Made by a program: the position numbers and the translations under genes. This document shows positions 15,109 through 59,811 of a DNA stretch of 60,981 nt, piece by piece. Source of the DNA: Bacilli bacterium (GTDB taxonomy: Bacteria; Bacillota_I; Bacilli_A; RFN20; CAG-826); contig JAFRPF010000040.1 in assembly GCA_017429285.1 (NCBI GenBank), positions 1 to 60,981 of the forward strand, given 5' to 3'. The notes below the pieces were generated by a model, which did no database searches, was not told the origin of the DNA, and saw only the letters and a list, made by a program, of their open reading frames with translations. How positions within the stretch are numbered: the first letter of the stretch is position 1; the number at the start of each line of letters is the position of its first letter.

Positions 15109-15161
15109 ACACTTCAAGTCATAAATATGTTTTAATATTTATATCTCTTGAGGTGTTTTTT
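15109..15161 (+). terminator. Terminator hairpin that also contains the next ribosome binding site
   Basis: ACACTTCAAG (15109-15118) pairs with CTTGAGGTGT (15147-15156), enclosing a nested stem AAATAT / ATATTT, and is followed by a T tract up to the ATG at 15162. The 3' arm contains the Shine-Dalgarno GAGGTG of the second nuclease gene. It may act as terminator, attenuator and translational switch. Confidence 0.7.
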
Positions 15162-18100
15162 ATGAAAAGAAAAACAATATTAAATGGAATTGCTACTCTG
15201 TCTTCAGCTACATTTATGGTAGTTGCGGGAGTTACTGCTTTTAACGGCAAAAAAGATGAAATAGCAAAAACTGAAGCTACTATTCCCTCCACTGATGTTC
15301 CAACAGAAAATATTCTTTTAGATGATTGCACAGACGAAGAGATAATTGCATATTATGATGGCTTAAATGGTTTAACACCTTCTCAATTGTCTGGAGAAAA
15401 TCTTTTAATTCAATTAAAAAGTATTATTAGAAATAATGTTAGTTATTACTCATATGGTTCAGGCGTTAAAAGCGCTTACGTTGTAACTGAAAGAGACTGG
15501 AAAAACAGCGGACCAGAAACATTTTCTGATTACGATCCAGTCACGAATACTATTAAAACAATCAATTATACTGAAGAACAAAATAAAAACCCTTACTATC
15601 ATTTGCTATACCATGATTACACTTTAGTAGATAAAACGAGAAGAAGCGGAGATGGCGATGTTTCTTCATCATCCGTTTCTTATGACCAGGAACATATTTG
15701 GAGTCAATCCCATGGTTTTGATAATAGCATTAAAGCAAATTTAACTGGTGCTGGAAGTGATATGCATCATTTACAAGCCGGAGCGCAATATGGTAATAGA
15801 TATCTCCATAGCAATTATTCCTATGGTTTTGTGAAAAATTTGGATTGGAAAGATTCTGATGTGCCTCAAGTCGAGAAGAAAAATAAAAGAGGCTCACCTC
15901 TATTTCCAAGATCTGGAGATCAGGAGAATAAGGTGTTTGAACCTCAAGACTCAGACAAAGGTGATATTGCAAGATCTTTGTTATACATGGTTGCGGCTTA
16001 CAACAATTTAGATGGAAGCACACCAACTCCAGAAGACCCCGCATTAAAATTAGTTAATTATATTATTTCCGAAAATAATACAGGCTATTCAAGCGACGAA
16101 ATCACTAACGGATATTATGGCGCATTAGAAGATATTTTAGCCTGGCACTACATGGATCCTGTCGATGAATATGAAATTCATAGAAACAACTTGATTTATA
16201 GAAATTATCAACATAATAGAAATCCATTTATCGATTACCCAGAATGGGTAGATTATATCTGGGGTAGAGCGGTTTATAATCCTACAACTAAACAAATCAC
16301 CCATGAAAGTCCATCTGGATATGTTGATTTAGATTACGACGCAATTAATGATTATCGCGAAAATATGAAAACCATCACTAAGATGGAAATCACCAAACAA
16401 CCAAGCAAAACAGTTTATTATGATGACGAAACATTCGATGCAACAGGTATGGAAGTAACTGTTACTTATGATGATTTAACCACTAAAGATGTAACTGATT
16501 TAGTTTCTATTGAAGTAGATTTGACTACAGTTGGAACACAAACCGTCACCGTTAAATATAAAAAAGAAGTAGCTACCACTACTGTCACTGTTTTAGAAAG
16601 AACTGACCCCGTTTCAAGTGTTGAGCTAGACAAAGATTCTCTTACTTTTAGAGTCGGTGACGTAGCATTCTTAAATCCAACAGTCCTTCCTAGAAGCGCT
16701 GCTAACAAAAACATTGTTTGGTCAAGTAGTGATAACAGCGTTGTCACTGTTGAAAATGGTAAATTGACTGGTACTGGTGAAGGAACTGCTGTTATTACAG
16801 CAACTTCAGAAAGTGATTCTACAATTTACGATACTTGTAATATCACTATCAGTGGCATTCGTTACGATTTATCCGAAACCACTTATGAACTAGTTCAATC
16901 AAACGATCAAATCGATCTAGAACGTAAATTTATCATTGCTTCTTCCGCTAATGAGTTGGTTATGAACAATCAAGATTCAACCAATAGAAGAACATATGAG
17001 GCATTCAAAAATGAAGAAGATAAAACTTTAGATGTTTCTGATGAATTTGCCGCTTTTACATTAGAATCCGGAACTGTTGAAGGCACATATGCGTTTAAAG
17101 ATAATGAATCGAACCAATATCTATATGCAAATGGAAATGGAAACAATTATCTAAAAAGCCAAAGTGAAATTGATGAATACGCATCTTTCACAATTGATAT
17201 TTCAACAGATGCAGATACAGGAATAACCACTACTAACATTTACGGTAATGGTGACAATCCAAATAAATATATGGGTTTTAATACACCTAACATTATTTCT
17301 TGTTATAGTAGTCAAAAAACTGGAGCTAACGGCATTAATCTTTACCAGCAAGTTGAAAGAACTGGGGGAGATGAAATACATGTCACCGGTATTAGATTAA
17401 ACAAAACATCTTTGATTTTAAATAAAGGAGAAACCGAAACATTATCCGCGAGAGTGCTACCAGGTGACGCAAATAATAGGAATTTTGAATGGACATCTTC
17501 TGCCCCAGATGTCGCAACAATTGATGACACCGGACTAATTACTGCTGTTTCCGTAGGAAATACTGTTATTACAGCAACCACTGAAGAAGGTGAGTTTGTT
17601 GACGCATGTGAACTCAGAGTAAACAGCGAATCAACAGGTACAGCTTATTACGAAAAAATATCGTCACTCAATGAATTTGAAGACGGGAATTATGTAATCG
17701 CAGCATATGTCAACGAGAACTATTACGCCTTACCTAATGCATTTCCAACAACTTATGGGAAAATATCGTCCCCAAATGCTATTAACGTTACCGATAATAA
17801 AATATCGACCTCTAATGCAACTAACTATGTTGTTACAATTGAAACTAACGGATCGACAATAACAATAAGCAATGGAACTAGTTTACTTGGAGCAAATGCA
17901 TCATATAATCTAAAAGCTGATGGTGATAATACAGATTGGACTCTTGACGTTATAAACAATAAAGGAACTTTCTCAATTACATGTTCGACAGGATATTTAT
18001 TAAAGTACCAAGCCAATAATCAGGAATATGGAGCTTATAAAGCATCTACAGCAGCATATTACAATCTTGAGCTATTCAAATACACCGAAGGTGAAGGTGA

Positions 18101-18500
18101 TTATGTAGTTGATAACTTTGTCGCTGATTTCTTAGGTGCATTTACTTGCGATCAAACAGGATTAACTGAACCAGTATTTAAAGAAGGTTGGTCCTGGACT
18201 ATATTAAAAGGTAAATATGAATCTTTAACTTCTGAAGAACAATTAGAATTAAAGAATTATGTAGCAAATGAATTCGGTAATGATGAAGCCAAATGCGTTG
18301 CTAGATATGACTATATTGTTAAGAAATATGGCACGACCAAATATCCAAACTGGATGAATAGAACTATATCTCCAAATGCTAATGTCATGATATTTAAGAC
18401 TGGAACGAATATTGTGTTTATCAATATAATTATTGGCTCGTTATTAGCATTATCAATCGGCTCATTCATCTTCTTCCGTAAGAAAAGAAAAGAATACTAA
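15162..18500 (+). CDS. Large multidomain surface endonuclease
   Basis: A 1112-residue paralogue of the preceding nuclease. After a signal sequence (1-30) comes an endonuclease I domain (about 45-385) with DQEHIWSQSHGF and GSDMHHLQAG in place of the first enzyme's motifs. It continues with a Big_3 domain (about 410-480), a Big_2 domain (about 485-562), a beta-rich module (about 570-735), a second Big_2 (about 745-825), a second copy of the beta-rich module (about 835-970), a C-terminal helical domain containing ARYDYIVKKYG, and a membrane helix with a KKRK stop. It is anchored without an LPXTG motif. The start at ATG 15162 has GAGGTG upstream; a GTG nine bases earlier is less likely. Confidence 0.88.
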   Translation: MKRKTILNGIATLSSATFMVVAGVTAFNGKKDEIAKTEATIPSTDVPTENILLDDCTDEEIIAYYDGLNGLTPSQLSGENLLIQLKSIIRNNVSYYSYGSGVKSAYVVTERDWKNSGPETFSDYDPVTNTIKTINYTEEQNKNPYYHLLYHDYTLVDKTRRSGDGDVSSSSVSYDQEHIWSQSHGFDNSIKANLTGAGSDMHHLQAGAQYGNRYLHSNYSYGFVKNLDWKDSDVPQVEKKNKRGSPLFPRSGDQENKVFEPQDSDKGDIARSLLYMVAAYNNLDGSTPTPEDPALKLVNYIISENNTGYSSDEITNGYYGALEDILAWHYMDPVDEYEIHRNNLIYRNYQHNRNPFIDYPEWVDYIWGRAVYNPTTKQITHESPSGYVDLDYDAINDYRENMKTITKMEITKQPSKTVYYDDETFDATGMEVTVTYDDLTTKDVTDLVSIEVDLTTVGTQTVTVKYKKEVATTTVTVLERTDPVSSVELDKDSLTFRVGDVAFLNPTVLPRSAANKNIVWSSSDNSVVTVENGKLTGTGEGTAVITATSESDSTIYDTCNITISGIRYDLSETTYELVQSNDQIDLERKFIIASSANELVMNNQDSTNRRTYEAFKNEEDKTLDVSDEFAAFTLESGTVEGTYAFKDNESNQYLYANGNGNNYLKSQSEIDEYASFTIDISTDADTGITTTNIYGNGDNPNKYMGFNTPNIISCYSSQKTGANGINLYQQVERTGGDEIHVTGIRLNKTSLILNKGETETLSARVLPGDANNRNFEWTSSAPDVATIDDTGLITAVSVGNTVITATTEEGEFVDACELRVNSESTGTAYYEKISSLNEFEDGNYVIAAYVNENYYALPNAFPTTYGKISSPNAINVTDNKISTSNATNYVVTIETNGSTITISNGTSLLGANASYNLKADGDNTDWTLDVINNKGTFSITCSTGYLLKYQANNQEYGAYKASTAAYYNLELFKYTEGEGDYVVDNFVADFLGAFTCDQTGLTEPVFKEGWSWTILKGKYESLTSEEQLELKNYVANEFGNDEAKCVARYDYIVKKYGTTKYPNWMNRTISPNANVMIFKTGTNIVFINIIIGSLLALSIGSFIFFRKKRKEY

Positions 18501-43203: not shown

Positions 43204-46011
43204 CTACTGTTTCAAAGCGGTTAAAGGATCTAGTTTGTTCAAACGATGGGCAATAAATAAAGAGGAGGCAATAGAAATAAAGAAGGCTAAAACAAACATA
43301 TAAACCAAAGATAAAGCGTTAAAAGACAATGAAAATGATGCTCCTGATTGTCTAGATAATTCCTCACTTATCACAAATGAGATAATAAATAGTTCAATCG
43401 AAGAAAGAATAAAGGAAATTAGACACATAATTAAGCTATGTGTTAAAGAAAATTTTCTTGATTCCTTCTTACTTAAACCGATACATCTCACTAAGCCGAT
43501 ATCCTTTTTATTTTCAAAAACATAGAGATAATTACAAATCGATAGCAATATCGTTGAGATAATAACTGCGATAATCGAAAAACACATTAAAGCAATTTCA
43601 ATATAGGAGCAAACAGTATTGATACTATTGCTTATTTCCTTCATCGGTTCCTCTATTTGAAAATCAGGAAAGGCGATCGTTAATTTCTTCGCCACGGCTG
43701 ATATTTCTTTTTTATTTTTCACATCCACCATAATGGAATTTACTCCTAAATCAAATGCCGAAACTTCTAACATTGTTTGAAAAAATAATAAAGGCCAATA
43801 TTGATTATGATAGATGCAGTTTTCATCCATATCGATAACACCACAAACCTGAACTTTTGTTGTTTTAAATTTTCTTATTAATTCGCCATCACTATTCCGA
43901 TTTTGAAAATATAGATAGGCAACTTCTAATTCCTTATAAAGACATTCCCCCTCATATAAAGATTCATTAAGTTTTGATGATATCAGTATTTCGTCATAAC
44001 TATTGGGTAATCTTCCGTACTTTAAAGGGTAATTATAGTTTTTAAAATTCATTCCGCCTTTGATTGATTCAGAAAAATGACCTGATATCACCTTATCAGG
44101 AAGTTTTAGATTCTCATTTTCATTCATTACTGTATTTGTGTTGATATCAATAGTTTCGCTTAACGCATCTTCATCGCTAGAAAAATACATATAATTAGCG
44201 AATCCATACATCATAGATGAAGGGTAAATAGCATAACCGGAACTACTTCCAAATATAGGGTTTTCAATCATACCAGTCATATCCTTAAATAAATCGTAAT
44301 AATAGATTGGTATATCCGCTAAAGTATTGGAAAAAACTAGTATTCTTTTCAGTAAATCAGGCATATTTGCCTTTTCTAATAGTGGAAAATAGGTTTTATT
44401 TGCAATCTCAAATATAAAAGGGGATAATTCTTTATCACTATATCCTTTTTCTAAGAAAGAATAATTATTTGTAGTTAGGTATATGTAGTATATCTTTTTT
44501 AATATCCAAGGCACGCTTGTTTCTTCTTCGATATTATCAGTTATAGGAAACCTCATTCTTGTTTCAAACATATACTCATTCCACATGTGATTAGTGTGAT
44601 ATATGCCACCTTCTTTTTCTAAAGTAAAACCAATAACTGTTAATAGTTGTTCATCGCCATATTCCCAATTATCATTTCTGAAGTCGAAATATATTCTTAA
44701 TGGAGAAGTTTGTAGATATCTAGATAATGATGTCACTGTTCTTTCAATTTTTAGCCCATAACAGATGTCATAAACCATATCAATTGTTAAAGACAAAACA
44801 ACTTCATCGTCACTTAGGGTTTCTATTTGTTCTGGATATATAGTTTCCGGTTTATTAGTATCAAGCCAACGATACTCATTAATATGTCGAGCTGTTAATC
44901 CTTCAATCGGAGTTCTATAGGTAGTGTCTGCTAAGCAGATGGTATTACTATGTGGGAAAAATGACTCAAAATCATTATCATAAGTTGCCCCTACATCATA
45001 GATATCACTTTTATATTTATCTTTGATATCCATAATTTCATAATAGCTAGCAGCGTATCTTCCATAGATGTCTGTGTCGTAATGTTTTCTAGTGATGGTA
45101 ATCTTAGAATCATCCACAATTTTGGAATAAGCGTTTTTAATATTAGAAGAAATGGAAGAAGATAAAGACGTGGCTAATCCCACACCTATAAGACCTAAGG
45201 AAGTCACAAGATTACAAATCATCGTTCGATATTTCTTTTGCTTAATCGAATTAATGGTGTGGTGAATTAAAAATGAAGATGGAATAGATGGCTTTCTTTC
45301 CACATAAAAAGCTTTTGATATTGGTAAATATTTATCTTTATGTTCTTTTTCTTGATGAATAACATCTTTAATTTTTCCATCTAACATATGAATGATGATG
45401 TCAGCGTAATTATTAGTGATTTCATCATCATGAGACACCATTACCACTAATGATTTTGAAGATACTTTTCTTAATATCTTCATAATTTCATTCGCAGTAT
45501 TATAATCTAAAGAACCAGTCGGTTCGTCCGCTAAAATAATTTTTGGGTTATTTACTAAAGCTCTAGCGATAGCGACACGTTGTTTTTCTCCGCCTGATAA
45601 TTTAGAAACTTTTTGTTTGTAATTTTTCTTTAATCCAACTAGATTAATTAGCTCTAAACATTTTCTAATTTTGTTATCTTTATTAGAGGAGCCAATCGCG
45701 TCTAAAGGCAACATAATGTTATTAATAACATTTTCATCTTCAAATAACTTATAATCTTGAAAGATAAAACCCATGTTTTTTAAACGGAAATCTCCTAATG
45801 ATTTCTCATTCATCATTTTGATGTGTTTATTATCAATTTGTATATCACCATTAAAATCAATTAAACCTGAGAGGCAATTTAAAAGCGTGGTTTTACCACA
45901 TCCTGATGGACCTTCAATAATTACTAAACCCTTATTTGGTAATTTAATAGAAACATCATAAAGAACATGGTTACCGTTATAATCTTTAGATAATTTATTA
46001 ATTTTTATCAT
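43204..46011 (-). CDS. Fused ATPase-permease ABC transporter (MacB/FtsX type), long
   Basis: A 935-residue single-chain half-transporter. The N-terminal ATPase (1-225) has Walker A GPSGCGKT (34-41), LSGGEKQ (138-144), Walker B IILADEP (158-164) and VSHDD. A membrane helix near 265-285 begins the permease, followed by an unusually large extracellular region of about 490 residues, then three C-terminal helices with the FtsX-like IGLVRCIGLSKKESR loop. This type-VII-like (mechanotransmission) design is used for lipoprotein, peptide or antibiotic handling. Its start overlaps the stop of the next transporter gene (ATGA), so the two probably form a pair. Confidence 0.88.
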   Translation of the reverse strand: MIKINKLSKDYNGNHVLYDVSIKLPNKGLVIIEGPSGCGKTTLLNCLSGLIDFNGDIQIDNKHIKMMNEKSLGDFRLKNMGFIFQDYKLFEDENVINNIMLPLDAIGSSNKDNKIRKCLELINLVGLKKNYKQKVSKLSGGEKQRVAIARALVNNPKIILADEPTGSLDYNTANEIMKILRKVSSKSLVVMVSHDDEITNNYADIIIHMLDGKIKDVIHQEKEHKDKYLPISKAFYVERKPSIPSSFLIHHTINSIKQKKYRTMICNLVTSLGLIGVGLATSLSSSISSNIKNAYSKIVDDSKITITRKHYDTDIYGRYAASYYEIMDIKDKYKSDIYDVGATYDNDFESFFPHSNTICLADTTYRTPIEGLTARHINEYRWLDTNKPETIYPEQIETLSDDEVVLSLTIDMVYDICYGLKIERTVTSLSRYLQTSPLRIYFDFRNDNWEYGDEQLLTVIGFTLEKEGGIYHTNHMWNEYMFETRMRFPITDNIEEETSVPWILKKIYYIYLTTNNYSFLEKGYSDKELSPFIFEIANKTYFPLLEKANMPDLLKRILVFSNTLADIPIYYYDLFKDMTGMIENPIFGSSSGYAIYPSSMMYGFANYMYFSSDEDALSETIDINTNTVMNENENLKLPDKVISGHFSESIKGGMNFKNYNYPLKYGRLPNSYDEILISSKLNESLYEGECLYKELEVAYLYFQNRNSDGELIRKFKTTKVQVCGVIDMDENCIYHNQYWPLLFFQTMLEVSAFDLGVNSIMVDVKNKKEISAVAKKLTIAFPDFQIEEPMKEISNSINTVCSYIEIALMCFSIIAVIISTILLSICNYLYVFENKKDIGLVRCIGLSKKESRKFSLTHSLIMCLISFILSSIELFIISFVISEELSRQSGASFSLSFNALSLVYMFVLAFFISIASSLFIAHRLNKLDPLTALKQ

Positions 46012-48119
46012 TCTTCACTTAGTTCCTCCTTTGGTGAGATTTTTTTCGAAAAAAATAAGGGGATATAAGTCGCTAATAGACAAACTAAAAATGTCGAAAG
46101 AAAAATCATTAAAGGAAACAACAAAGGAACGCCTAAAAAGATAGCATAAGGAATTTTAATAATGCCTTCAAATGTTGTGATATTTTTAATAATCGTATTT
46201 GCTAATAAGGAGAATAAAGGGGCAATCATTATCGAGGTAAGTGAAGCTATACCACCAATAAATAGATTCTCCATAAGATAAATCTTAAATATGCTATTTT
46301 TATTAGATCCTAAACAAGTTAATATCGCACTAATCTTTTTATCTTCAGTAAAGGAAGAAAAAGAAATAATACCGAGAATTAATCCAGTTCCTAATAAAGC
46401 AATCATTAAAAATAAACTCATCCCTAATGTCGCGGCCCCGATTAAATCATTTAATGCTTTATATGTTTCATAAGTAGTAGATTCAATTTTATAAGGACTA
46501 GGAATGTTATTTATTATTGTTTCTATCTCATTTCTTTTATCACTTCTTTTTAAAAATAATTGATATGAATAAGAAGATAGAGATTCCTCGTCTAGGCATG
46601 TTAATAAGCGTTCATACCAAGATATAGTGTTATTTTCCTCTTTAGATAGATTCACTAATATAGAATCAGTTAGATAATCTTTCATAGAAAGATAGGAATA
46701 ATAAATCTTTGGTGTTGATAAAAAATTAAAATCATCCACCACGCCCATAATTTTGATATTTTTTTCATAAATAAAATAATCAGTGATGACAGGATTAAGA
46801 GGATCATCTTTATAAAAATGATGCTCATATTTAATTGATAAATATAAATCGATATTTAACGGTTCGATATTTAATTTGTTTTTTAAATATTTATAACCAG
46901 TTTTATTTATAACGACTTCATTTAAATTATCTTCTTTTGGAAATTGTCCTTTTATTAATAAAGATTTATCAATGCTTTCTTCAATAAATGAATAAACAGG
47001 ATAATACCCTAAATTATCAATTCTTTCTTCACCGATAATGACATTTGGGTAATTAGTCACTAATGTGGAGATGTTTGGCTCTATATAATAATCCTTTAAA
47101 TAATTATTAATAGTGTATAGTTCATCAATCTTAGGTCTAATCATCTGGACCAAAGACATCTTGCTACCAGGGATGTTATTATTAATTTCTTTATATATAG
47201 AAGCCACTCCATAATCTAGCTGATGATAGCTTCTCTTTTTTATCGATTCCCCACTACCTAAATCAAATCCGATAATTAATATGGAACTAATTAAACAAAT
47301 GATAAGGGAAATTATTGAAACAATATTTCTTTTTAATCTTCTTTTAAAATTAGAAATCGATAAATGTTTGATCCATCCATTCTTATAAACGATTTTCGTT
47401 TCGTTCTTATTTTCATTAACATCTACTATTTCATTAATCTCTTCAATATTATCGATAAGTCCATCTTTAAGATGAATAATCGTATCAGAATATTCTCTTA
47501 CTAGCTCTTGGTTATGGCTAACTAGTATCACTAATCGAGTCTTAGAAATCTCTTTTAATAAATCCATCACAATTTTGGAATTCTTTGTATCTAATGCCCC
47601 TGTTGGTTCATCCGCTAAAATAATTGATGGGTCATTAATAAGGGCCCTTAATATCGCTACTCTTTCTTTCTCTCCACCAGATAGATCTTTGCATTTTTGA
47701 TAATATAGGTTTTCCTTAAAATTTATGCTTTTTAAAAGGTTTTTCGCTTCAATTTCAGCTTCTTTTAACTTTTTTCCACTAATTAAAGCGGGAAGCATAA
47801 TATTAAAAATTACTGTTTCATTTTCTAATAGATGATAGCTTTGAAATACAATCCCAATATCTTTATTTCGATATAAATTTCTTTCTTTATCTTTCCACTT
47901 TAAAACGTTTTTATTTCGATAATAAATAGTTCCACTGGTGGGTTCATCAAGCATACTGATGATATTTAATAAAGTGGATTTACCACTACCTGATTTACCA
48001 TTAATTGAAAATAAACCTCTTTCTGGAAACATTAAAGAGATCTTATTTAAAACCACTTTATCTTTACTATTCTCTAACTTATATTTTTTCCTTATTGAAG
48101 ATAGTCTTAAAATATACAA
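46008..48119 (-). CDS. Fused ATPase-permease ABC transporter (MacB/FtsX type), short
   Basis: A 703-residue partner of the preceding protein. The ATPase (1-225) has Walker A GKSGSGKS (41-48), LSGGEKERVAILRAL, Walker B IILADEP and VSHNQ. A helix near 260-285 is followed by an extracellular region of about 270 residues and three C-terminal helices, with SAILTCLGSNKNSIF as coupling loop. The start codon is TTG at 48119, 10 nt after AGGAGG; that Shine-Dalgarno sits inside the fhs terminator. UGA is the stop codon, which shows the standard code. Confidence 0.87.
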   Translation of the reverse strand: MYILRLSSIRKKYKLENSKDKVVLNKISLMFPERGLFSINGKSGSGKSTLLNIISMLDEPTSGTIYYRNKNVLKWKDKERNLYRNKDIGIVFQSYHLLENETVIFNIMLPALISGKKLKEAEIEAKNLLKSINFKENLYYQKCKDLSGGEKERVAILRALINDPSIILADEPTGALDTKNSKIVMDLLKEISKTRLVILVSHNQELVREYSDTIIHLKDGLIDNIEEINEIVDVNENKNETKIVYKNGWIKHLSISNFKRRLKRNIVSIISLIICLISSILIIGFDLGSGESIKKRSYHQLDYGVASIYKEINNNIPGSKMSLVQMIRPKIDELYTINNYLKDYYIEPNISTLVTNYPNVIIGEERIDNLGYYPVYSFIEESIDKSLLIKGQFPKEDNLNEVVINKTGYKYLKNKLNIEPLNIDLYLSIKYEHHFYKDDPLNPVITDYFIYEKNIKIMGVVDDFNFLSTPKIYYSYLSMKDYLTDSILVNLSKEENNTISWYERLLTCLDEESLSSYSYQLFLKRSDKRNEIETIINNIPSPYKIESTTYETYKALNDLIGAATLGMSLFLMIALLGTGLILGIISFSSFTEDKKISAILTCLGSNKNSIFKIYLMENLFIGGIASLTSIMIAPLFSLLANTIIKNITTFEGIIKIPYAIFLGVPLLFPLMIFLSTFLVCLLATYIPLFFSKKISPKEELSEE

Positions 48120-53218: not shown

Positions 53219-54790
53219 TTATTTCGCAGTTTCCACCGCTCTATATTCACGGATAACAGAAACTTTGATTTGACCTGGATAGGTCATTTCATTTTCAATT
53301 CTTTCTTTGATTTCACGTGCTAAACGGAAAGCACCGACATCATCGATCTTATCTGGTATTACCATGACACGTAATTCACGGCCAGATTGTAAAGCATAGG
53401 ATTGATAAACACCGTCGTATGATTTACAAATCTCTTCGAGTTGTTCAATACGTTTGATGTAATTTTCAAGCATTTCGCTTCTCGCACCTGGTCTAGCCGC
53501 TGATAAAGTATCGGCCGCTTGTACTAAGTTAGCGATAATAGATTTAGCAGGAACATCACCGTGGTGAGATTCAATAGAATTGATAACCACATCTGGTTCA
53601 CCATATTTCTTTGCTAATCTAGAGCCTAATTCCACGTGACTTCCTTCAACTTCGAAGTCAACAGCTTTACCGATATCATGTAATAAACCAGCGCGTTTGG
53701 CTAAGTTTTGATCTAAGCCAAGTTCCGCCGCCATCATACCGGTTAAATAAGCAACTTCTACTGAGTGTTCTAAAGCATTTTGGCCATAAGAAGTACGATA
53801 TTTTAATCTACCAACATAATCTAATAATTCACGATTAATTTTTGGTAAACCAAGTTTAAAGGCCACTTCTTGACCAGTTTTATGCATGCTTTCTTCCACT
53901 TCTTTTTTGGTCTTTTCAACGATTTCTTCGATACGACCTGGTTGGATACGTCCATCCTTAATTAAAGCTTCTAAAGATAAACGAGCGATTTCTCTTCTGA
54001 TTGGATTAAAACAACTAATAGTAATAACTTCTGGTGTGTCATCAATAATTAAATCGACACCTAATAATTGTTCTAAAGAACGAATGTTACGACCTTCACG
54101 ACCGATAATTCTGCCTTTCATTTCATCACTAGGTAAAGCAACAACGGAAACAGTTCTTTCAGTAGTCACTTCTTGAGCATATTTAGCACAAGCCATACCG
54201 AGTAATTCTTTAGCTTTTTCATCAGCGGTTTCTTTCGCCTCTTCTTCTTTATTCTTAATGTAAGCTGCGATTTCTTTGCTGATTTTAGATTCCACTCGAT
54301 CCATTAGTTCGTCTTTCGCTTCTTGAGTGGACATTTGAGCGACTTTTTCAAGTTCACCGATAATGCTATCGATTTTTTCTTGTAAATCAGCTTCCTTCTT
54401 ATCGACGTCTTTCAAACGACGATTTAAAGTTTCGTTCTTTTGTTCAAGAGTGTTTTCTTTTTGAATTAAAGCCGCATCACGACGATCGATATTTTGTTCA
54501 CGAATAGTTAATTTATTTTCTAAATTAGCTACTTCTTGTTTTCTTTCATGGATCTCTTTGCTAGCTTCTTGTTTCATTTCATAGACAGCTTGTTTGCCAT
54601 CTAATTGAGCATTCTTAGCAATATGCTCCGCTTTAATTTCTGCATCACGAATAATCTTCTGGGCGCTGACTTTAGCTCTATTCTTTTTAAAAGCAGGAAC
54701 GAGGAAAATAATTAATCCACCGATTAATAATCCCGCTACGCCGCAGACGATAGGTAGCCATATGTTTATGGCGGAATCAAATACTAACAT
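53219..54790 (-). CDS. rny: Ribonuclease Y
   Basis: RNase Y is the membrane-bound endoribonuclease that starts mRNA decay in many Firmicutes. The 523-residue protein has an N-terminal membrane helix (about 9-32), a long coiled coil (40-200), a KH domain with [10 protein letters not shown] (226-235), and an HD domain with [10 protein letters not shown] (His371-Asp372). Partners in this window are the YmcA-like protein and the nanoRNase NrnA. Its leader of about 170 nt carries several hairpins. AAAGGAA precedes the ATG. Confidence 0.97.
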
Positions 54791-54966
54791 ATAGTATTCC
54801 TTTCTATTGTCTTATAGACAAAACATAGTTCATCACTATGATTACCTAAAAATCCCTATTATTCCATTAGGTTAAGGATTCAAATGTATATTTACAGGAC
54901 CAGCCTGATAATAAAGTTCTCAATGAGAGAATATATAGGTAAGTACCTTTCGAAGGGTACGTGTTT
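54791..54966 (-). promoter_or_regulatory. Structured 5' leader of rny
   Basis: About 170 nt are transcribed before rny. Minus-strand hairpins: GTACC / GGTAC at 54943-54960, at the predicted 5' end; CAGG / CCTG at 54895-54907; ACCTAA / TTAGGT at 54844-54872; CATAGT / ACTATG at 54824-54840; TTGTCT / AGACAA at 54807-54821, next to the ribosome binding site. It matches no riboswitch class I know and holds no credible small open frame. Control of rny by its own product is a reasonable inference. Confidence 0.55.
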
Positions 54967-54996
54967 ATTATATATGCAGGCGCACATTATTATCAA
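54967..54996 (-). promoter_or_regulatory. Promoter of rny
   Basis: TTGATA (54996-54991), 18 nt, TATAAT (54972-54967). Predicted start near 54960, exactly at the first leader hairpin. Confidence 0.75.
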
Positions 54997-55029
54997 ATTA
55001 AAAAATTAAAAGGAGAACGAGTCTCCTTC
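54997..55029 (-). terminator. Terminator of the large surface-protein gene
   Basis: AAGGAGA (55010-55016) pairs with TCTCCTT (55022-55028); TTTAATTTTTTAATTT follows on the minus strand. Confidence 0.85.
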
Positions 55030-55032
55030 TAA

Positions 55033-58000
55033 TTAAGCTTGAAATTGTTTGTTAAGTTCGTCATTTTGATGCTTGCTTACCCAATTATCAAAATAATCCA
55101 AACTATGTCCTTTATAATCTGTGTCATAGTCGTCTAATTGAATATTTAAGCTACCAAACATATTGAAGTTAAGAGCAAGGTTCATATTAAATGAAGCTTC
55201 AATCTTTTTCATAATTCCTTTATTAACCACCACTAATGGGTTACCTAATTCGTCAACTTCTTTTTCAGAATATTCAATGTGTTGGCCTTGAGTGACAGTT
55301 AAACCTAATGTGCCCATCTTATCATTTCCTGCTAATTCAGCAAGATTTAAGGAAAGATTATAAACACCATTTGAACAAGTATAGTTATCAATTAAATTGT
55401 CATAGTGTATTTGATGTTCTTCAGCACCACCAGCATCAGCAACCATGTCAGTAATAAAGTCGGCTAATCCTAAGATATCTTTAAGAAGAATATCAAAGAT
55501 ATTGTCCATAGCATAATCAACTGTACAACGACGATAATATTTGGCACTGCTGTTGCTTGCAGAGAATAAATAATATCCAGATTTCTTCGTGTCGTTACGA
55601 GAAGTATATAAGCATTCAGTTTCACTATCGTACATCAAGTAAGATGTTGGACCACTTGTTAAACCATAATTACCAACAACAACGTATTGAGAAACAAATG
55701 GAACTTCAAACTTTGCTAATACTTTAACATGGTTGTTTTCATTTAAGATTTCTAAAGTAATTGGAACAGTGACCGTTTTTAAACTAAGTTGAGAACCAAA
55801 GAATTCAGCGGTGATATTGATGTTAGCAGTTCCAGTAATTTTATAGTAATTAAATTCGGTTGTGTTAATACCAATATCAAGTAAAGTAGCAACACTGGAA
55901 ATGTCTAAATAACTAGCATTATCAGGTAATAAATTTTTATAAGAATTGTAGGAAATTTCATCAAAATCATGAAGATTTGCAGACATATTGATGGTTTTTC
56001 CACCAAATTCGAATCCTGTAAGAGCGATGCTATCAACTGTGTCATTAGCGAAGTGAACCTCTAATTCAAAGTCAGTTGCTTCAAGGTTAATAATGGCACC
56101 ATTAAGACCTAAAACAATTGTGTCTTCACTAACATCTAAACTATTTAAAATCTTAGTGTCAAATAAGACTCCAAAATCACCATTAATAAGTCTAGAAATT
56201 GGAAGTTCTTCGCTATTATCCATGAATGAATTAATCATAGAAACAGCGTTTGAAGCTTCACCATTCATTAATCTAGAAATTGTTCCAACAAGTGAATCCA
56301 CCATATTACGATTAAAGGAAGCATAAATATGGTTATCATCACTTACTTCGGAACCATTTTTGAGTTCTCTCATATCGTATTTTAGATGGATGTCTCCATT
56401 ATCGATTGCATACGCATTAATCTTATGGAGAACATTTGTCTCTTTAATGTTTAAATAGCCAGCACCTAAATCGAAGTTACGGGTTTTATCCATAAAGCTA
56501 CCACTTAATGTGAATTGGAATTCACCATTTAAGAATAGATTCTTGTTCGCATCTTCATTATCTAAAACATCAATATTGAAATCGATACCAAAATTGTCTT
56601 TTTCAATAAGCTCACTGATGTCATCGATCATGCCAACCGCTGGATCTAATCTTAAATAGCTGGATTCATTGATCGAAAAATCCACATATTCACTGACGTC
56701 TAAAGATAAATTAATGAGCATGTCATCGATTCTTAATCCATTAACGGTAATAGATTTAATAGCCACGCTATCAAAATCAATTCTTAAATAAACTTTTCCT
56801 AAGGATAAATTAAAGTAACTTGTGTCAATATAGAAAGATAGATGATTGTTATTTAATTCAAATTCATCAACAAAGGTTGGAATATCATTTACTATTTTTA
56901 AAATAGTACGGAGATCCATTTCTAAAGCAAAATCACCCAAGCCTTCTAAAATAGCAGGAGCCTCTTCCATAGGGAATTTAGTGGTGATGATTTCCACTAA
57001 AGATTCAATAGATTGTTTTTCTATAGAAATACTTAAATCGTTATTTTCACTATAGAAGTTTTTATATCTAGCAAAGACAGTGTTATTGCTAAAAGCGGCT
57101 TCAATATTATGTTTTCTACCACTTTCAGAAATGGTTAAAGAACTATTTAATAAAAGATTAGATAAATTATGAGCGTCAAAATCTAGTTCACCATTAACAT
57201 CGATAAAAGATTCTAGTCCAGATTCACCCTCTTTTAAAACTTCTAAATCTAAACCAACATGCGCTTGTTTTAACGTGATAATACGCATAACATCCGCTGC
57301 TAAGGTAAAAGCGGATTTGAAGTTAGTGTATTTGGGAGCATCAGGTTTATTAATTGGAGATATAATCTCTCTTTTTTCAGAACTAGTCTTAATTGTGCTT
57401 GTTGCGCTAATGCGATAACCACCAATTTCAATGCCAGGTAATTCGACACCTGACATATTGAGATTTTCATCAACATTAAATCTAATAGTGATTTCAGGAG
57501 TTAAATTAAATAAGAAATAATGTTCATCATTTTCATTAAATTCTTCAACATTATTCAAAGAATTAGTCAAAGTATCAATATCTAAATCAAAAGAAATATC
57601 GCCTTCTTGTGAATTAAGTAAAGAAGCTATGCTAGATCCAACACTTGGAATCATAAGAACACCTTCGAGTAAATCACTGGTCTTTAAGTACCAATGGGTG
57701 TCTTCGTAATCTAAAAAGATAGTGTTATCAATGTAAGCTAAGGAAAGGCTTAAATCTAAATCTTCTGTTTTAACTGAAAGATCAGCTTCTAATTTCAAAT
57801 CGCTTAAATTAGAGAAATCAACATTAAGATTCTTTAAAGAAAGATCAACATCACCTAAATCATTTAGGTCTAACGCTCTAGTTGGCATTTGAGTAACTGG
57901 CTCATTATTAATCTTTTCGATTTTTAAATCGATATCTCCATATACCGCTTGAGCGGATGATAAACTGCTTAAAAATTTATCTTTTGATGTTGGAACGTAA

Positions 58001-58164
58001 TTTGGTGTGTTAGTTTGAGAAGTGGAATTAGTTATTGCCTCATTTTCATTAAAATTTTGTTTTTGTGGAGTGCTATAGGCAGCTAAAAAACCACCACCGG
58101 CACCTAAAGCAAACACCGCTGTAAATATTCCAATTTCTAATAATATTTTCTTCCAAGTTTTCAT
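55033..58164 (-). CDS. Large repetitive membrane-anchored surface protein, function unknown
   Basis: I do not recognise this 1043-residue protein. An N-terminal signal-anchor (about 8-31) is followed by a low-complexity Asn/Thr/Ser linker (about 35-62) and a very beta-rich, acidic region. Three related units of roughly 200-250 residues are visible: each contains a strand series around NTVFARY- or NTIFLDY-like sequence and ends in a segment such as GVELPGIEIGGYRI, ITVNGLRIDDMLI or ALTGFEFGGKTI. The pattern recalls LolA/LppX-like half-barrels used for lipid or polymer binding, but that is only a structural guess. It lies 13 nt after the 291-residue secreted protein; Shine-Dalgarno AAGGGG. Confidence 0.8.
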   Translation of the reverse strand: MKTWKKILLEIGIFTAVFALGAGGGFLAAYSTPQKQNFNENEAITNSTSQTNTPNYVPTSKDKFLSSLSSAQAVYGDIDLKIEKINNEPVTQMPTRALDLNDLGDVDLSLKNLNVDFSNLSDLKLEADLSVKTEDLDLSLSLAYIDNTIFLDYEDTHWYLKTSDLLEGVLMIPSVGSSIASLLNSQEGDISFDLDIDTLTNSLNNVEEFNENDEHYFLFNLTPEITIRFNVDENLNMSGVELPGIEIGGYRISATSTIKTSSEKREIISPINKPDAPKYTNFKSAFTLAADVMRIITLKQAHVGLDLEVLKEGESGLESFIDVNGELDFDAHNLSNLLLNSSLTISESGRKHNIEAAFSNNTVFARYKNFYSENNDLSISIEKQSIESLVEIITTKFPMEEAPAILEGLGDFALEMDLRTILKIVNDIPTFVDEFELNNNHLSFYIDTSYFNLSLGKVYLRIDFDSVAIKSITVNGLRIDDMLINLSLDVSEYVDFSINESSYLRLDPAVGMIDDISELIEKDNFGIDFNIDVLDNEDANKNLFLNGEFQFTLSGSFMDKTRNFDLGAGYLNIKETNVLHKINAYAIDNGDIHLKYDMRELKNGSEVSDDNHIYASFNRNMVDSLVGTISRLMNGEASNAVSMINSFMDNSEELPISRLINGDFGVLFDTKILNSLDVSEDTIVLGLNGAIINLEATDFELEVHFANDTVDSIALTGFEFGGKTINMSANLHDFDEISYNSYKNLLPDNASYLDISSVATLLDIGINTTEFNYYKITGTANINITAEFFGSQLSLKTVTVPITLEILNENNHVKVLAKFEVPFVSQYVVVGNYGLTSGPTSYLMYDSETECLYTSRNDTKKSGYYLFSASNSSAKYYRRCTVDYAMDNIFDILLKDILGLADFITDMVADAGGAEEHQIHYDNLIDNYTCSNGVYNLSLNLAELAGNDKMGTLGLTVTQGQHIEYSEKEVDELGNPLVVVNKGIMKKIEASFNMNLALNFNMFGSLNIQLDDYDTDYKGHSLDYFDNWVSKHQNDELNKQFQA

Positions 58165-58177
58165 ATATATAACCCCT

Positions 58178-59053
58178 TTAGTAATGATAACTTTCTTCTA
58201 AAGAAGGAATTGTCTCACTACTCTCTCTATAAAATTTTTGTGTTAAAGTTCCTTTTGAATCATTCGTGCCAATAACGTAAACCACATAATGCTCATCGGT
58301 TTTTAATTCTTCAATATTTAGATCTTTATCCATTGTGAATTGTAGCTTCACATATTTGAAATCTGGATATCTATCTAATGAGGAGATGTTAACCATCTGA
58401 CGGATATAACGAGATACAGATGTAACAGGATCAAGTTCCAAATTAACAACATATTTGCCATCAACTTCCGTTAGTGTTTCACTAAGCACCGTTTTAGAAG
58501 ATATGTTATAAATGACAGGTCTATCGAGTGTCTTGCCCCATACCTCTTCATGACTTTCAAGATTTCTGGCTATAGAATCATCCTCAGAATAGCTAGCAGT
58601 TCCGTTATCTTTTACTTTTGAAGCGGTATAAGACTTAACTACACCGTTTTCTTGGTAGAAACGAACACCGACTTTCTTCATACCAGCGGATAATGACTCA
58701 GTAAAGAATCGATCTCCATCTCTAACATCGTGAGCAAAGATCTTTTGAGTGGCTACAGATGCGGTAACAGTACCTAAACTCACAGTATGAGTATGTTCAA
58801 GCTGTCCAAATTTAAGCCAGGATATATTAGCAAGTTCATAAGGACGATATGATTCAACGTTTTTGTCATTTTCATATTTTTCCATTAATGCCGCATAGTC
58901 ATCTTCAATACCTGTATCAATCTTTCCAGCAGGAGCTACAGGTGTTTTAGGAGAAAGCGCTTTTCCTAAGACAATGCCTAAAGCTAGTCCTCCCGCAACC
59001 GCAGAAGTGACTACTATAGATGTAATGACAATCGTAGAAACCTTAATTTTCAT
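58178..59053 (-). CDS. Secreted or membrane-anchored protein of unknown function
   Basis: A 291-residue protein with an N-terminal hydrophobic segment (about 7-31, VITSIVVTSAVAGGLALGIVLG) and no Cys lipobox. The rest is a soluble, beta-rich extracellular domain without motifs I recognise. It is the first gene of a two-gene operon with the 1043-residue protein. There is no Shine-Dalgarno; TATAGT lies 9 nt before the ATG. The divergent gene encodes an XRE-type membrane regulator, a plausible controller. Confidence 0.8.
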   Translation of the reverse strand: MKIKVSTIVITSIVVTSAVAGGLALGIVLGKALSPKTPVAPAGKIDTGIEDDYAALMEKYENDKNVESYRPYELANISWLKFGQLEHTHTVSLGTVTASVATQKIFAHDVRDGDRFFTESLSAGMKKVGVRFYQENGVVKSYTASKVKDNGTASYSEDDSIARNLESHEEVWGKTLDRPVIYNISSKTVLSETLTEVDGKYVVNLELDPVTSVSRYIRQMVNISSLDRYPDFKYVKLQFTMDKDLNIEELKTDEHYVVYVIGTNDSKGTLTQKFYRESSETIPSLEESYHY

Positions 59054-59100
59054 AACTCATAAACTATACACGCGTAGAAAAAAATGTGTTCCTACTTTTT

Positions 59101-59134
59101 AAAATTTAAAAAGAGAGTTTATTCTCCAACTCTC
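59101..59134 (-). terminator. Possible attenuator hairpin before the 58178 gene
   Basis: Minus-strand GAGAGTT (59134-59128) pairs with AACTCTC (59119-59113), followed by TTTTTAAATTTT. No gene ends here, so if transcribed it lies in the leader of the 58178-59053 gene. Confidence 0.4.
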
Positions 59135-59199
59135 CAAAAAAGAGAATAGATAAAATTTTTAGGCTTCCAATCATCAAAAAATGAGATATCATATTATAT

Positions 59200-59811
59200 A
59201 TGGACGACTTAAAAACGATAGTAGGCAAGAATTTAGCTAGTTTAAGGAAATCAAAAAAGCTAACCCAAGTTGAATTAGCAGAAAAATTCGATTATTCGGA
59301 TAAAGCGGTGTCAAAATGGGAGCAAGGATCCACTATGCCGGACCTAGAAACCCTTAAACAACTATGTGATTATTATGGTGTTTCTTTGGATTATTTAACA
59401 AATCCTAATAACATCCAAAATCCACACACGGATAGGTCAAAAGAAAGAACTATAATGCTTAATCATATAGCTATTACTTTCCTTGTTGATTCGATCGTTT
59501 GGATGATAGCCACTATTATCTTTATATATCCTTTATTATTCCAAGGTAAAAAAGACGCTTATTGGGTGGTATTCGTTTGGGCGGTACCAATCTCCGCTTT
59601 ATTATTACTATTTTTCAATCGACTATATTTTAATCGAAGAAAAGTAATAACCTTAATCGCACTATCTACTTTAATATGGACATTACTAACATCTGTCTTC
59701 CTTCATTTCGCGTTTTTTACAACAGAAGGAACTAACTTAGCAATGATCTATATTATTGGAATTCCACTGCAAATATCCGCTATTTTGTGGTTTATGATCA
59801 AAAAACAATAA
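59200..59811 (+). CDS. XRE-family regulator with four membrane helices
   Basis: The 203-residue protein starts with a Cro/CI-type helix-turn-helix domain (residues 1-66; LRKSKKLTQVELAEKFDYSDKAVSKWEQG), then has four hydrophobic helices (about 87-112, 119-139, 147-171, 179-199). This HTH plus membrane-domain design is common in Firmicutes and could sense the membrane state. It is divergent from the two surface-protein genes and may control them. TATCAT ends 7 nt before the ATG and there is no Shine-Dalgarno, suggesting a leaderless mRNA. Confidence 0.88.
   Translation: MDDLKTIVGKNLASLRKSKKLTQVELAEKFDYSDKAVSKWEQGSTMPDLETLKQLCDYYGVSLDYLTNPNNIQNPHTDRSKERTIMLNHIAITFLVDSIVWMIATIIFIYPLLFQGKKDAYWVVFVWAVPISALLLLFFNRLYFNRRKVITLIALSTLIWTLLTSVFLHFAFFTTEGTNLAMIYIIGIPLQISAILWFMIKKQ

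Follow-up and report, generated by a model that had tools for sequence, protein, structure and literature searches.

A predicted tethered string of LolA/LppX-fold domains as a possible lipid uptake module in a Bacilli bacterium

Three neighbouring genes of a Bacilli bacterium (assembly GCA_017429285.1, contig JAFRPF010000040.1; the window is the whole analysed stretch of 60,981 nucleotides) encode a long repeat protein, P0001, an anchored partner, P0002, and a divergently transcribed regulator, P0003. The reading that best accommodates our results, to which we give an even chance, is that P0001 and P0002 form an outward-facing tethered string of LolA/LppX-fold carriers that takes up lipids, where the architecture and regulation are drawn from computation and both the ligand and the direction are what we infer. 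The module may thus be an unrecognised route for lipid pickup from the surroundings. The features are as follows (minus strand unless stated; basis in brackets).

55004-55034: terminator-like hairpin 3' of P0001, 13 pairs with a T-rich tail (sequence)
55033-58164: P0001, 1043-aa repeat protein with N-terminal membrane helix, linker and four LolA/LppX-like units (ORF)
55036-55914: P0001 unit D or C-terminal cap, residues ~751-1043 (LolA-type matches; enlarged profile)
55915-56658: P0001 unit C, residues ~503-750 (B-C profile match)
56659-57339: P0001 unit B, residues ~276-502 (LprF/LprG structural matches)
57340-57993: P0001 unit A, residues ~58-275 (model topology; A-B profile match)
58072-58161: P0001 membrane helix at the N-terminus, residues 2-31 (predicted helix, pLDDT <50)
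58173-58179: AAAGGGG across the P0002 stop, a likely ribosome-binding site for P0001 (sequence)
58178-59053: P0002, 291-aa anchored partner with membrane helix and one LppX-like domain (ORF, model)
58181-58897: LppX-like domain of P0002 (model and structural matches)
58955-59041: membrane helix of P0002, model residues 5-33 (low-confidence helix in model)
59129-59147, no strand: operator-like palindrome ACTCTC-N7-GAGAAT, 11/12 to the consensus ACTCTC-N7-GAGAGT (sequence)
59200-59811, plus strand: P0003, divergent regulator with XRE-type HTH (residues ~12-66) and four membrane helices (ORF, HTH_3, hydropathy)

Gene arrangement, distribution and the divergent regulator

The open reading frames at 55033-59811 are exactly those of the original prediction (1043 aa, 291 aa and a divergent HTH protein, here 203 aa), and because relatives of all three exist across genera, they are real genes rather than chance frames. 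The 13-nt gap between P0002 and P0001, the AAAGGGG before the P0001 start and the hairpin 3' of P0001 make a single P0002-P0001 transcript plausible, and the arrangement, as read from the sequence, fits one. Elsewhere in the window, two ABC-FtsX genes lie at 43204-48119; upstream of rny, no Rfam family reached the gathering score, and a snoRNA match there was below threshold.

P0001 matches were found in 27 of the 95 genomes searched, own genome included, and P0002 in 51. The three genes stand together at 22 of 25 named loci, and P0002 adjoins P0001 in 26 of the 27 P0001-bearing genomes (side by side in G072, for example). Altogether 32 cassettes were counted in 21 different flanking-gene settings, so that the three-gene arrangement, whose distribution in relatives had been proposed as a check, does recur across many different settings. 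The distance matrices of the three proteins agree (r 0.82-0.85, 31 loci), an agreement that plain common descent also gives. Within the class, three further families show both large proteins fused into one chain at all 11 loci examined, from a set of 20 matching genomes outside the family; these chains have 1361-2802 aa and ~5-12 units. We infer that P0001 and P0002 are the split form of this long single chain and are partners in the cell. A constant ABC-transporter partner was considered and rejected. ABC_membrane exporters lie near P0002-like genes at L083, L089 and L067 (Pfam, few loci scanned) and a phosphate-uptake set neighbours the fused protein L148; because these sets differ between lineages, ABC-type neighbours were treated as chance.

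P0003 carries an HTH_3 domain (E 2.7e-16, 59.8 bits against a Pfam cut-off of 23) and four hydropathy segments, which are also found in 18 of 24 family members, consistent with the HTH protein with four membrane helices described earlier. Among the best HTH matches in the 95 genomes, 26 of 27 adjoin P0002, which marks a cassette-linked subfamily. Moreover, the palindrome ACTCTC-N7-GAGAGT is present in the shared intergenic region of 25 of 33 cassettes (0.22 expected) and in 12 of 17 held-out cassettes (0.17 expected), and occurs in none of 166 control gaps. Co-occurrence and the operator-like palindrome common to the cassettes thus support the suggestion that a membrane-bound regulator controls both large genes. 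P0003 is probably a repressor reading the state of the membrane.

Predicted fold and domain organization of P0001 and P0002

Both proteins are predicted to have the LolA/LppX fold, a half-open barrel of ~11 strands with helices over the open side. The P0002 model (pLDDT 86.5, pTM 0.80) has helices, then strands and helices, in LolA/LppX fold order. Its best structural match is LppX (2byo, Z 11.8), followed by LprG (3mh8, Z 11.1), and its match list includes LprG entries with bound PIM and triacylglyceride (titles of 3mha and 4zra). Further matches are the outer-membrane barrel PcoB (Z 9.2) and RseB (2v42, Z 9.0). P0002 had been called both secreted and anchored; the predicted N-terminal helix favours the latter and not the former.

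The AlphaFold2 model of P0001 is moderate only (pLDDT 72.8, pTM 0.47), so the placement of its units is tentative and a continuous groove hypothetical. The model repeats, four times, a helix, ~six strands, helices and ~five strands. Three related beta-rich units had been proposed. Units A, B and C are indeed related by profile (A-B, E 2.3e-12, 97.7%; B-C, E 3.3e-21, 99.4%; A-C, E 2.3e-5) and contain the GG(Y/K)xI and GLRIDDxxI segments, but the unit count is four. Unit D has no direct profile link to A, B or C (best probability 3.7%) and joins them via a unit profile to which fused relatives had been added (84.4%, E 7.1e-6; reversed control 0.38). Unit B matches LprF (4qa8, Z 10.5, 156 residues, rmsd 3.8) and LprG (3mh9, Z 10.4), while unit D matches LolA3 (9tp6) and LolA (8v1k), both at Z 10.1, with the outer-membrane barrel CymA close behind (Z 9.4). 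The fold thus rests on Z ~10 for B and D and on profile homology to B for A and C. In a Foldseek search with the whole P0001 model, the top rows were TbpB chains with a TM-score of at most 0.07. Of the folds suggested for comparison, LolA/LppX was borne out, with LppX, LprG and LolA-type structures as top matches of P0002 and units B and D, and YceI was absent among the 50 matches listed for either model. The idea that P0002 is one more copy of the unit at sequence level was not supported (hhalign 0.1%), its link to the units being through the predicted fold alone.

A confident assignment to known families, which was to count against the original prediction, did not emerge: P0001 and P0002 match no Pfam or NCBIfam family at cut-off, and the two collections yielded nothing usable for either. 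LppX_LprAFG (PF07161) was absent for both among Pfam matches up to E 1 and for all 33 P0002 homologues among the matches listed; it matched weakly one of 21 P0001 homologues (E 0.025) and one of 40 units (E 0.022). Other Pfam families match single units equally well or better, such as WapI in one of 40 (E 1.2e-5). The unit profile had LprG as its top PDB match, a weak one (E 0.15). Two direct routes of assignment were rejected: Pfam searches with the homologues (33 of P0002, 21 of P0001) gave scattered matches, nearly all in one member each, and PDB sequence profiles of P0001 and P0002 gave weak matches to unrelated chains alone.

The N-terminal anchor claimed for P0001 is retained as a predicted helix of low confidence. 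The N-terminal stretches of P0001 and P0002 contain no cysteine, so a lipoprotein signal is absent. In some distant homologues (L078, L079, L087, L155 and L156), a lipobox stands where P0001 has its helix. Given this lipoprotein signal, the chain of P0001 and P0002 should, judging from these sequences, face outside.

Such a chain could also be a surface coat, adhesin or spacer, in which beta-rich units build an elongated rod and the LolA-like fold holds no ligand. This explanation would suit the unit number, which ranges from 4 to ~12 per protein, and the recent tandem duplications of two units in three fused proteins, both of which resemble surface proteins of variable length. However, the order of helix and half-barrel is kept in the models of all four P0001 units and of P0002, and a dedicated regulator and near-constant pairing would exceed the needs of a plain rod. 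We therefore regard it as unlikely.

The fold itself does not give the function, because the same fold serves as a sensor (RseB) and as an enzyme (VioE, among the listed fold matches of P0002 and of P0001 units). An RseB-like P0002 could inform the regulator of lipid or membrane damage, with P0001 as effector or bait. The RseB match, the membrane-bound regulator and a P0002-like gene overlapping a sigma-70-type factor gene (L088, on the same contig as L104) point this way. Yet a single genome showed the sigma-factor neighbour, with Pfam-scanned neighbours from few loci, and sensing alone would leave four or more tandem units unexplained, which makes an envelope sensor very improbable.

Membrane context of the bacterium and proposed function

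This gut bacterium seems, from its gene content, to have no cell wall. Profile searches of its genome found no PF00905 penicillin-binding transpeptidase, Omp85 or ketoacyl synthase, although absence from a 94.6% complete draft can be an assembly gap; neither PF00905 nor PF00109 turned up in any of the six genomes of the genus. The Omp85 (PF01103) search was positive in 7 of 14 reference genomes as a control. Six DegV (FakB-like) matches were found in the own genome, but DegV is present in 94 of 95 genomes and is therefore not specific to the module. Ketoacyl synthase exceeded the cut-off in 7 of 95 genomes, in full length in two of these; since it is rare everywhere yet P0001 and P0002 occur in 27 and 51 genomes, respectively, the need for lipids does not predict the module. 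Little weight was likewise given to a link between wall loss and the module. PF00905 occurs in 2 of 27 P0001-positive (G010 and G040) against 20 of 68 P0001-negative genomes (Fisher p 0.029; genomes related), and in 8 of 51 P0002-positive against 14 of 44 P0002-negative genomes (p 0.088; genomes related); the association was discounted because of this relatedness and the P0002 value.

LprG, LppX and LprF are carriers on an outward path, LprG and LppX probably for mycobacterial envelope lipids. As they are the nearest folds, the string might carry a cell-made lipid, lipoglycan or polyprenyl-linked product off the membrane. However, because neither Omp85 nor PF00905 was found in the own genome, no outer layer was detected there as a target for export, and no gene constantly adjoins the cassette in its 21 flanking sets. 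Outward transport is accordingly rated as distinctly unlikely.

For the preferred reading, uptake, the one domain of P0002 and the four of P0001 would act together as a tethered string, each domain a predicted half-open beta-barrel with helices over its opening, similar to the barrel in which LprG holds acyl lipids. In a bacterium in which no wall or outer-membrane markers and no ketoacyl synthase were detected, lipids or fatty acids would most likely be taken from outside, be it from the diet, the host or nearby cells, and handed along the string or down to the single membrane, while P0003 would bind the palindrome between the genes and set expression on both sides. The suggestion of a surface module that possibly binds lipid is in this respect supported by the fold matches and co-occurrence. 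A fuller and more tentative proposal, which we hold to be possible but rather doubtful, is that wall-less gut Bacilli have a bridge-like chain of up to ~13 tandem carrier domains in a single anchored polypeptide that passes lipids inward from hand to hand, arose independently of P116, grew by duplication of two-unit blocks and is, in its split form, controlled by a membrane-bound repressor and a dedicated operator.

For wall-less gut bacteria seemingly without fatty-acid synthesis, the source of membrane lipids has, to our knowledge, been explained in Mycoplasma only. A chain of tandem carriers under a dedicated regulator would, if true, be a concrete and testable answer on lipid supply, would add a strung-together architecture to the single carriers of the LolA/LppX fold, and would assign a role to two protein families missed by Pfam and NCBIfam. 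Among the open-licence PMC papers listed, no earlier report of such a chain was found, judged by title and start of abstract.

Comparison with known systems

LppX, LprG and LprF, the best structural matches of P0002 (LppX, LprG) and unit B (LprF), are single-domain, membrane-anchored, extracytoplasmic lipoproteins. The proteins in the window are likewise predicted to be membrane-anchored and extracytoplasmic. In contrast, they have membrane helices, stay below the Pfam cut-off and comprise five domains in two proteins, or ~6-13 in the fused chain. LolA and LolB share the fold class (unit D matches LolA at Z ~10), but LolA is soluble and single-domain and the Lol pathway serves the outer membrane, whereas Omp85 was not found in the own genome. 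The E. coli envelope-stress sensor RseB has a LolA-like domain that P0002 matches (Z 9.0), but the gene partners differ and the window cassette has no sigma factor.

The closest system in proposed job and setting is P116 (MPN_213) of Mycoplasma pneumoniae. Sequence searches of the PDB (up to E 1 or 5) and the fold matches listed contained no P116 chain. As reported (PMC10023570), P116 is a large surface protein, anchored to a bacterium that has no wall; it extracts host lipids, forms a homodimer and has a large hydrophobic cavity and a fold that its authors call previously unseen. The module described here differs from P116 by its predicted tandem LolA/LppX-like units.

Gene arrangement and co-occurrence

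The original prediction placed three open reading frames in the window, and their positions agreed exactly with the sequence:

55033-58164, minus strand: P0001, the 1043-aa repeat protein with units A to D
58178-59053, minus strand: P0002, the 291-aa anchored partner
59200-59811, plus strand: P0003, the HTH protein with four predicted membrane helices

The minus-strand genes lie head to tail with 13-nt spacing; before the start of the P0001 gene, an AAAGGGG overlaps the P0002 stop codon, a terminator-like hairpin follows the P0001 gene, and the HTH gene is divergent from the pair. The window is an entire contig; the draft genome to which it belongs measures 1.26 Mb and is 94.6% complete. The recA-rny placement of this cassette (we presume the names recA, rny, miaB and ymdB by recognition from sequence and gene order) was common to 4 of the 5 other searched genomes of the genus (L051, L053, L054 and L055), with one additional gene adjoining recA in L051; in the remaining genome, L052, a diverged cassette lies at another site. 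Further features of the window are:

54785-54999, minus strand: long rny leader region carrying a strong promoter-like pair (TTGATA-18-TATAAT at 54996-54967)
43204-48119, minus strand: large proteins of 935 and 703 aa, each a fusion of ABC-ATPase and FtsX, located seven kilobases away from the cassette and either candidate partners or chance neighbours of it
13438-15069 and 15153-18500, plus strand: adjacent large proteins, each with Endonuclease I and bacterial Ig-like domains (Big_3, Big_2); both are apparently nucleases that are secreted or located at the surface

The rny leader hairpins are near-invariant across five genomes of the genus (mean column identity 79%), and 9 of 64 predicted pairs show a double change, yet the covariation term is unfavourable and no Rfam family matched; the leader is possibly an autoregulatory RNA of RNase Y.

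Counting the genome of the window, P0002 was present in 51 of 95 genomes and P0001 in 27, and in 26 of these 27 the two were adjacent on the same contig by match coordinates (G072 was confirmed separately); the sole exception, G089, contained P0001 without a P0002 match. Among 25 named loci retrieved via P0002, 16 of which duplicate genomes already covered, the divergent HTH gene was found in 23 (truncated by the contig end in L110), a full-length P0001-like protein in 23 and all three genes in 22; L096 lacked the HTH gene, L104 lacked both partners, and the P0001-like partner in L114 was short and weak. Flanks, mostly fetched over 3-10 kb per side, were compared for 32 cassettes (31 loci with a strong match to P0001 plus the window, 14 repeat loci being excluded), and merging those with at least two flanking genes in common left 21 distinct settings. 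The 22 complete loci of 25 and the 21 settings among 32 cassettes therefore indicate that the cassette genes stay together amid changing surroundings. The distance matrices of the three proteins correlated (r 0.84, 0.85 and 0.82; 0 of 1000 permutations) across 31 loci where each protein occurs once (17 repeat or near-identical loci removed), an agreement for which common descent by itself can suffice.

Variant neighbourhoods were also observed:

L164 4944-13312 and L079 7168-16001: enlarged cassettes of a P0002-like gene, two P0001-like genes and an HTH gene on the same strand as the others, without divergence
L088 2859-4437 (contig of L104): P0002-like gene overlapping a sigma-70-type factor gene, without P0001 or HTH, possibly a sensor version of the domain
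L083 6655-12532 and L090 6303-12220: P0002-like gene encoding a lipobox-like N-terminus, then two ABC transporters flanking a DUF1854 protein (domain scan on L083 only)
L185 9488-10075: orphan cassette-type HTH membrane regulator, with no P0001 or P0002 near

The HTH regulator and an operator-like palindrome

The 27 best HTH matches among the 95 genomes scored at least 225 bits, and 26 of them adjoin P0002; the next match scored 208 bits. By these matches, P0003 belongs to a cassette-linked subfamily. One of the 27, in G024, had no partner within the 19 kb inspected, and G022 contains a rearranged cassette with a lower-scoring HTH protein (175 bits). The palindrome ACTCTC-N7-GAGAGT is common to the HTH-P0002 intergenic regions, and in the window it is found at:

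59129-59147: palindrome site with one mismatch to ACTCTC-N7-GAGAGT

Of 33 non-redundant regions (out of 49), 25 matched it in at least 10 of its 12 positions, against a shuffled expectation of 0.22 and none of the 166 other gaps at the same loci; with the threshold at 9 positions, the counts were 28/33 and 11/166. It was rediscovered from 16 regions (13/16) and found in 12 of 17 held-out regions versus 0.17 expected, some related genomes being represented in both halves. Where P0002 occurs without a local HTH gene, the palindrome was present at 3 of 25 loci, two of them from the same genome, and in 0 of the 10 fused genes among these loci. Read by eye, it abuts a TTGACA-like hexamer upstream of the HTH gene in L060, L062 and L102. 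The genome of the window has only one other one-mismatch site (G000:C37); allowing up to two mismatches gave 19 matches versus 26 for the reversed pattern, and the remaining matches are thus background, being no commoner than that pattern. We infer repression and autorepression by the HTH protein via the palindrome. With such a membrane-bound regulator linked to them, a sensing role for P0002, with P0001 as effector or bait, could be considered, which we regard as quite improbable.

Anchoring, fold and repetition of the domains

P0001 and P0002 each begin with a predicted membrane helix preceded by lysines. A lipobox takes the place of the helix in P0001 homologues from L078, L079, L087, L155 and L156 and in P0002 homologues from L080/L081, L083, L087 and L089. 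The lipobox pattern is loose; only cases ending a signal-like N-terminus were kept, hits inside or before helices were excluded (L055, L061, L062, L066, L075, L078, L084, L085, L106 and L164), and a similar cysteine in L090 was missed by the pattern. That the anchor can be of either type points to an external location of P0001 and P0002.

The P0002 model (pLDDT 86.5, pTM 0.80) comprised a low-confidence membrane helix and an open barrel with helices, and its top match was LppX (Z 11.8, 168 residues, rmsd 4.1), followed by LprG (Z 11.1), LprF (10.4), LolA (9.4) and RseB (9.0); this margin is real but modest, because outer-membrane barrels reached Z 8-9.2. Foldseek's own ranking placed LprG first and LolB second. 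The P0001 model (pLDDT 72.8, pTM 0.47) runs four times through a helix, about six strands, helices and about five strands. Unit B matched LprF (Z 10.5) and also LprG, and unit D matched LolA proteins (Z about 10) with the barrel CymA close (9.4), the parts outside B and D being barely tested; for the whole model, Foldseek's first rows were TbpB chains at TM-scores of at most 0.07, and LolA ranked fifth. A plain surface coat is another reading of these repeated units, which we consider unlikely.

Profile comparison gave E values of 2.3e-12 (A-B), 3.3e-21 (B-C) and 2.3e-5 (A-C), with reversed controls at 2.5% probability or below, and units A, B and C are by this measure homologues of one another. 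Unit D had no link to them in direct comparison (probability up to 3.7%) and joined via an enlarged unit profile (84.4%, E 7.1e-6; reversed control 0.38), to which P0002 had no link (0.1%). The sequence searches gave only hints of LppX/LprG kinship: LprG was the top match of the unit profile among PDB sequences (E 0.15), and LppX_LprAFG matched 1 of 21 homologues and 1 of 40 units, other single units matching unrelated families equally well or better.

A class-wide profile search covering 395 genomes detected P0001-like sequence in 50, and 20 of these lie outside the order of the window. All 11 loci sampled from these 20 genomes (nine from family f27, one each from f16 and f23) encode a single protein of 1361-2802 aa with a P0002-like domain first and P0001-like units after it, one of them (1710 aa) truncated by the contig end; unfused P0002-like proteins also occur in these families (e.g. 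L186, and a second copy in L189). With a profile of units B and C only, 8 of the 11 fused chains yielded 3-7 units, and L146, L148 and L149 yielded none. After three rounds of enlargement using hits from the fused chains themselves, the profile covered all 11 end to end, with best controls of E 3.8 (shuffled sequence) and 0.023 (unrelated window protein).

Table. Units found with the enlarged profile
L148: about 12 (13 hits, two being halves)
L152, L145, L146: 10 each
L151, L154: 8 each
L147, L153: 7 each
L149, L150: 6 each
L159: 5
P0001: 4, the fourth partial (E 8e-4)

Two-unit blocks have been duplicated recently in L148, L145 and L152, all of the fused genes tested: the copies lie 975-1059 nt apart with 92-100% identity across 300 nt. 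No such duplication was found in the window. At phylum scale, P0002-like sequence occurred in 66 of 392 genomes, all bearing the label of the same class or closer, the share of other classes among the 392 not being given. In L157, L158, L161 and L163, a 637-640-aa protein adjoins a 1520-1622-aa protein matching P0001 (BLAST E at most 1e-5), a pair that is perhaps an additional, more diverged version of the module.

Lifestyle markers and proposed function

Ketoacyl synthase was not found in the genome of the window; it was above the cut-off in 7 of 95 genomes and full-length in only 2, both without P0001 and P0002. Six DegV hits were present in the genome of the window, DegV being the family of the fatty-acid-binding FakB. 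The same genome had no match to PF00905 (penicillin-binding transpeptidase; control positive in 10 of 14 reference genomes) or to Omp85 (7 of 14), and PF00905 was absent from all 6 genomes of the genus and present in 3 of 57 family genomes. A published survey predicts that the orders RFN20, RF39 and ML615J-28 include members deficient in peptidoglycan, and expects a wall in most members of RF39 (PMC10868615). The genome of the window may itself belong to RFN20.

Capture of external lipids by the P0001/P0002 string is the most economical reading, given the fold, the tandem repetition, the outward anchoring, the missing markers of a wall or an outer membrane, and the apparent lack of fatty-acid synthesis. 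Its main weakness is that ketoacyl synthase is also missing from relatives without the module, so the module cannot be the sole solution. The same fold could serve export of a lipid product rather than import; with no Omp85 or PF00905 found in the genome of the window, export seems rather unlikely.

The LolA/LppX-type fold is itself already known. Among the open-licence papers that the searches reached, titles and abstract openings contained no description of a string of five (window) to about 13 such domains, whether divided between two proteins and linked to a membrane-bound regulator or joined in one chain. On the proposed reading, the string of LolA/LppX-like domains would capture external lipids in the manner of P116 (PMC10023570).
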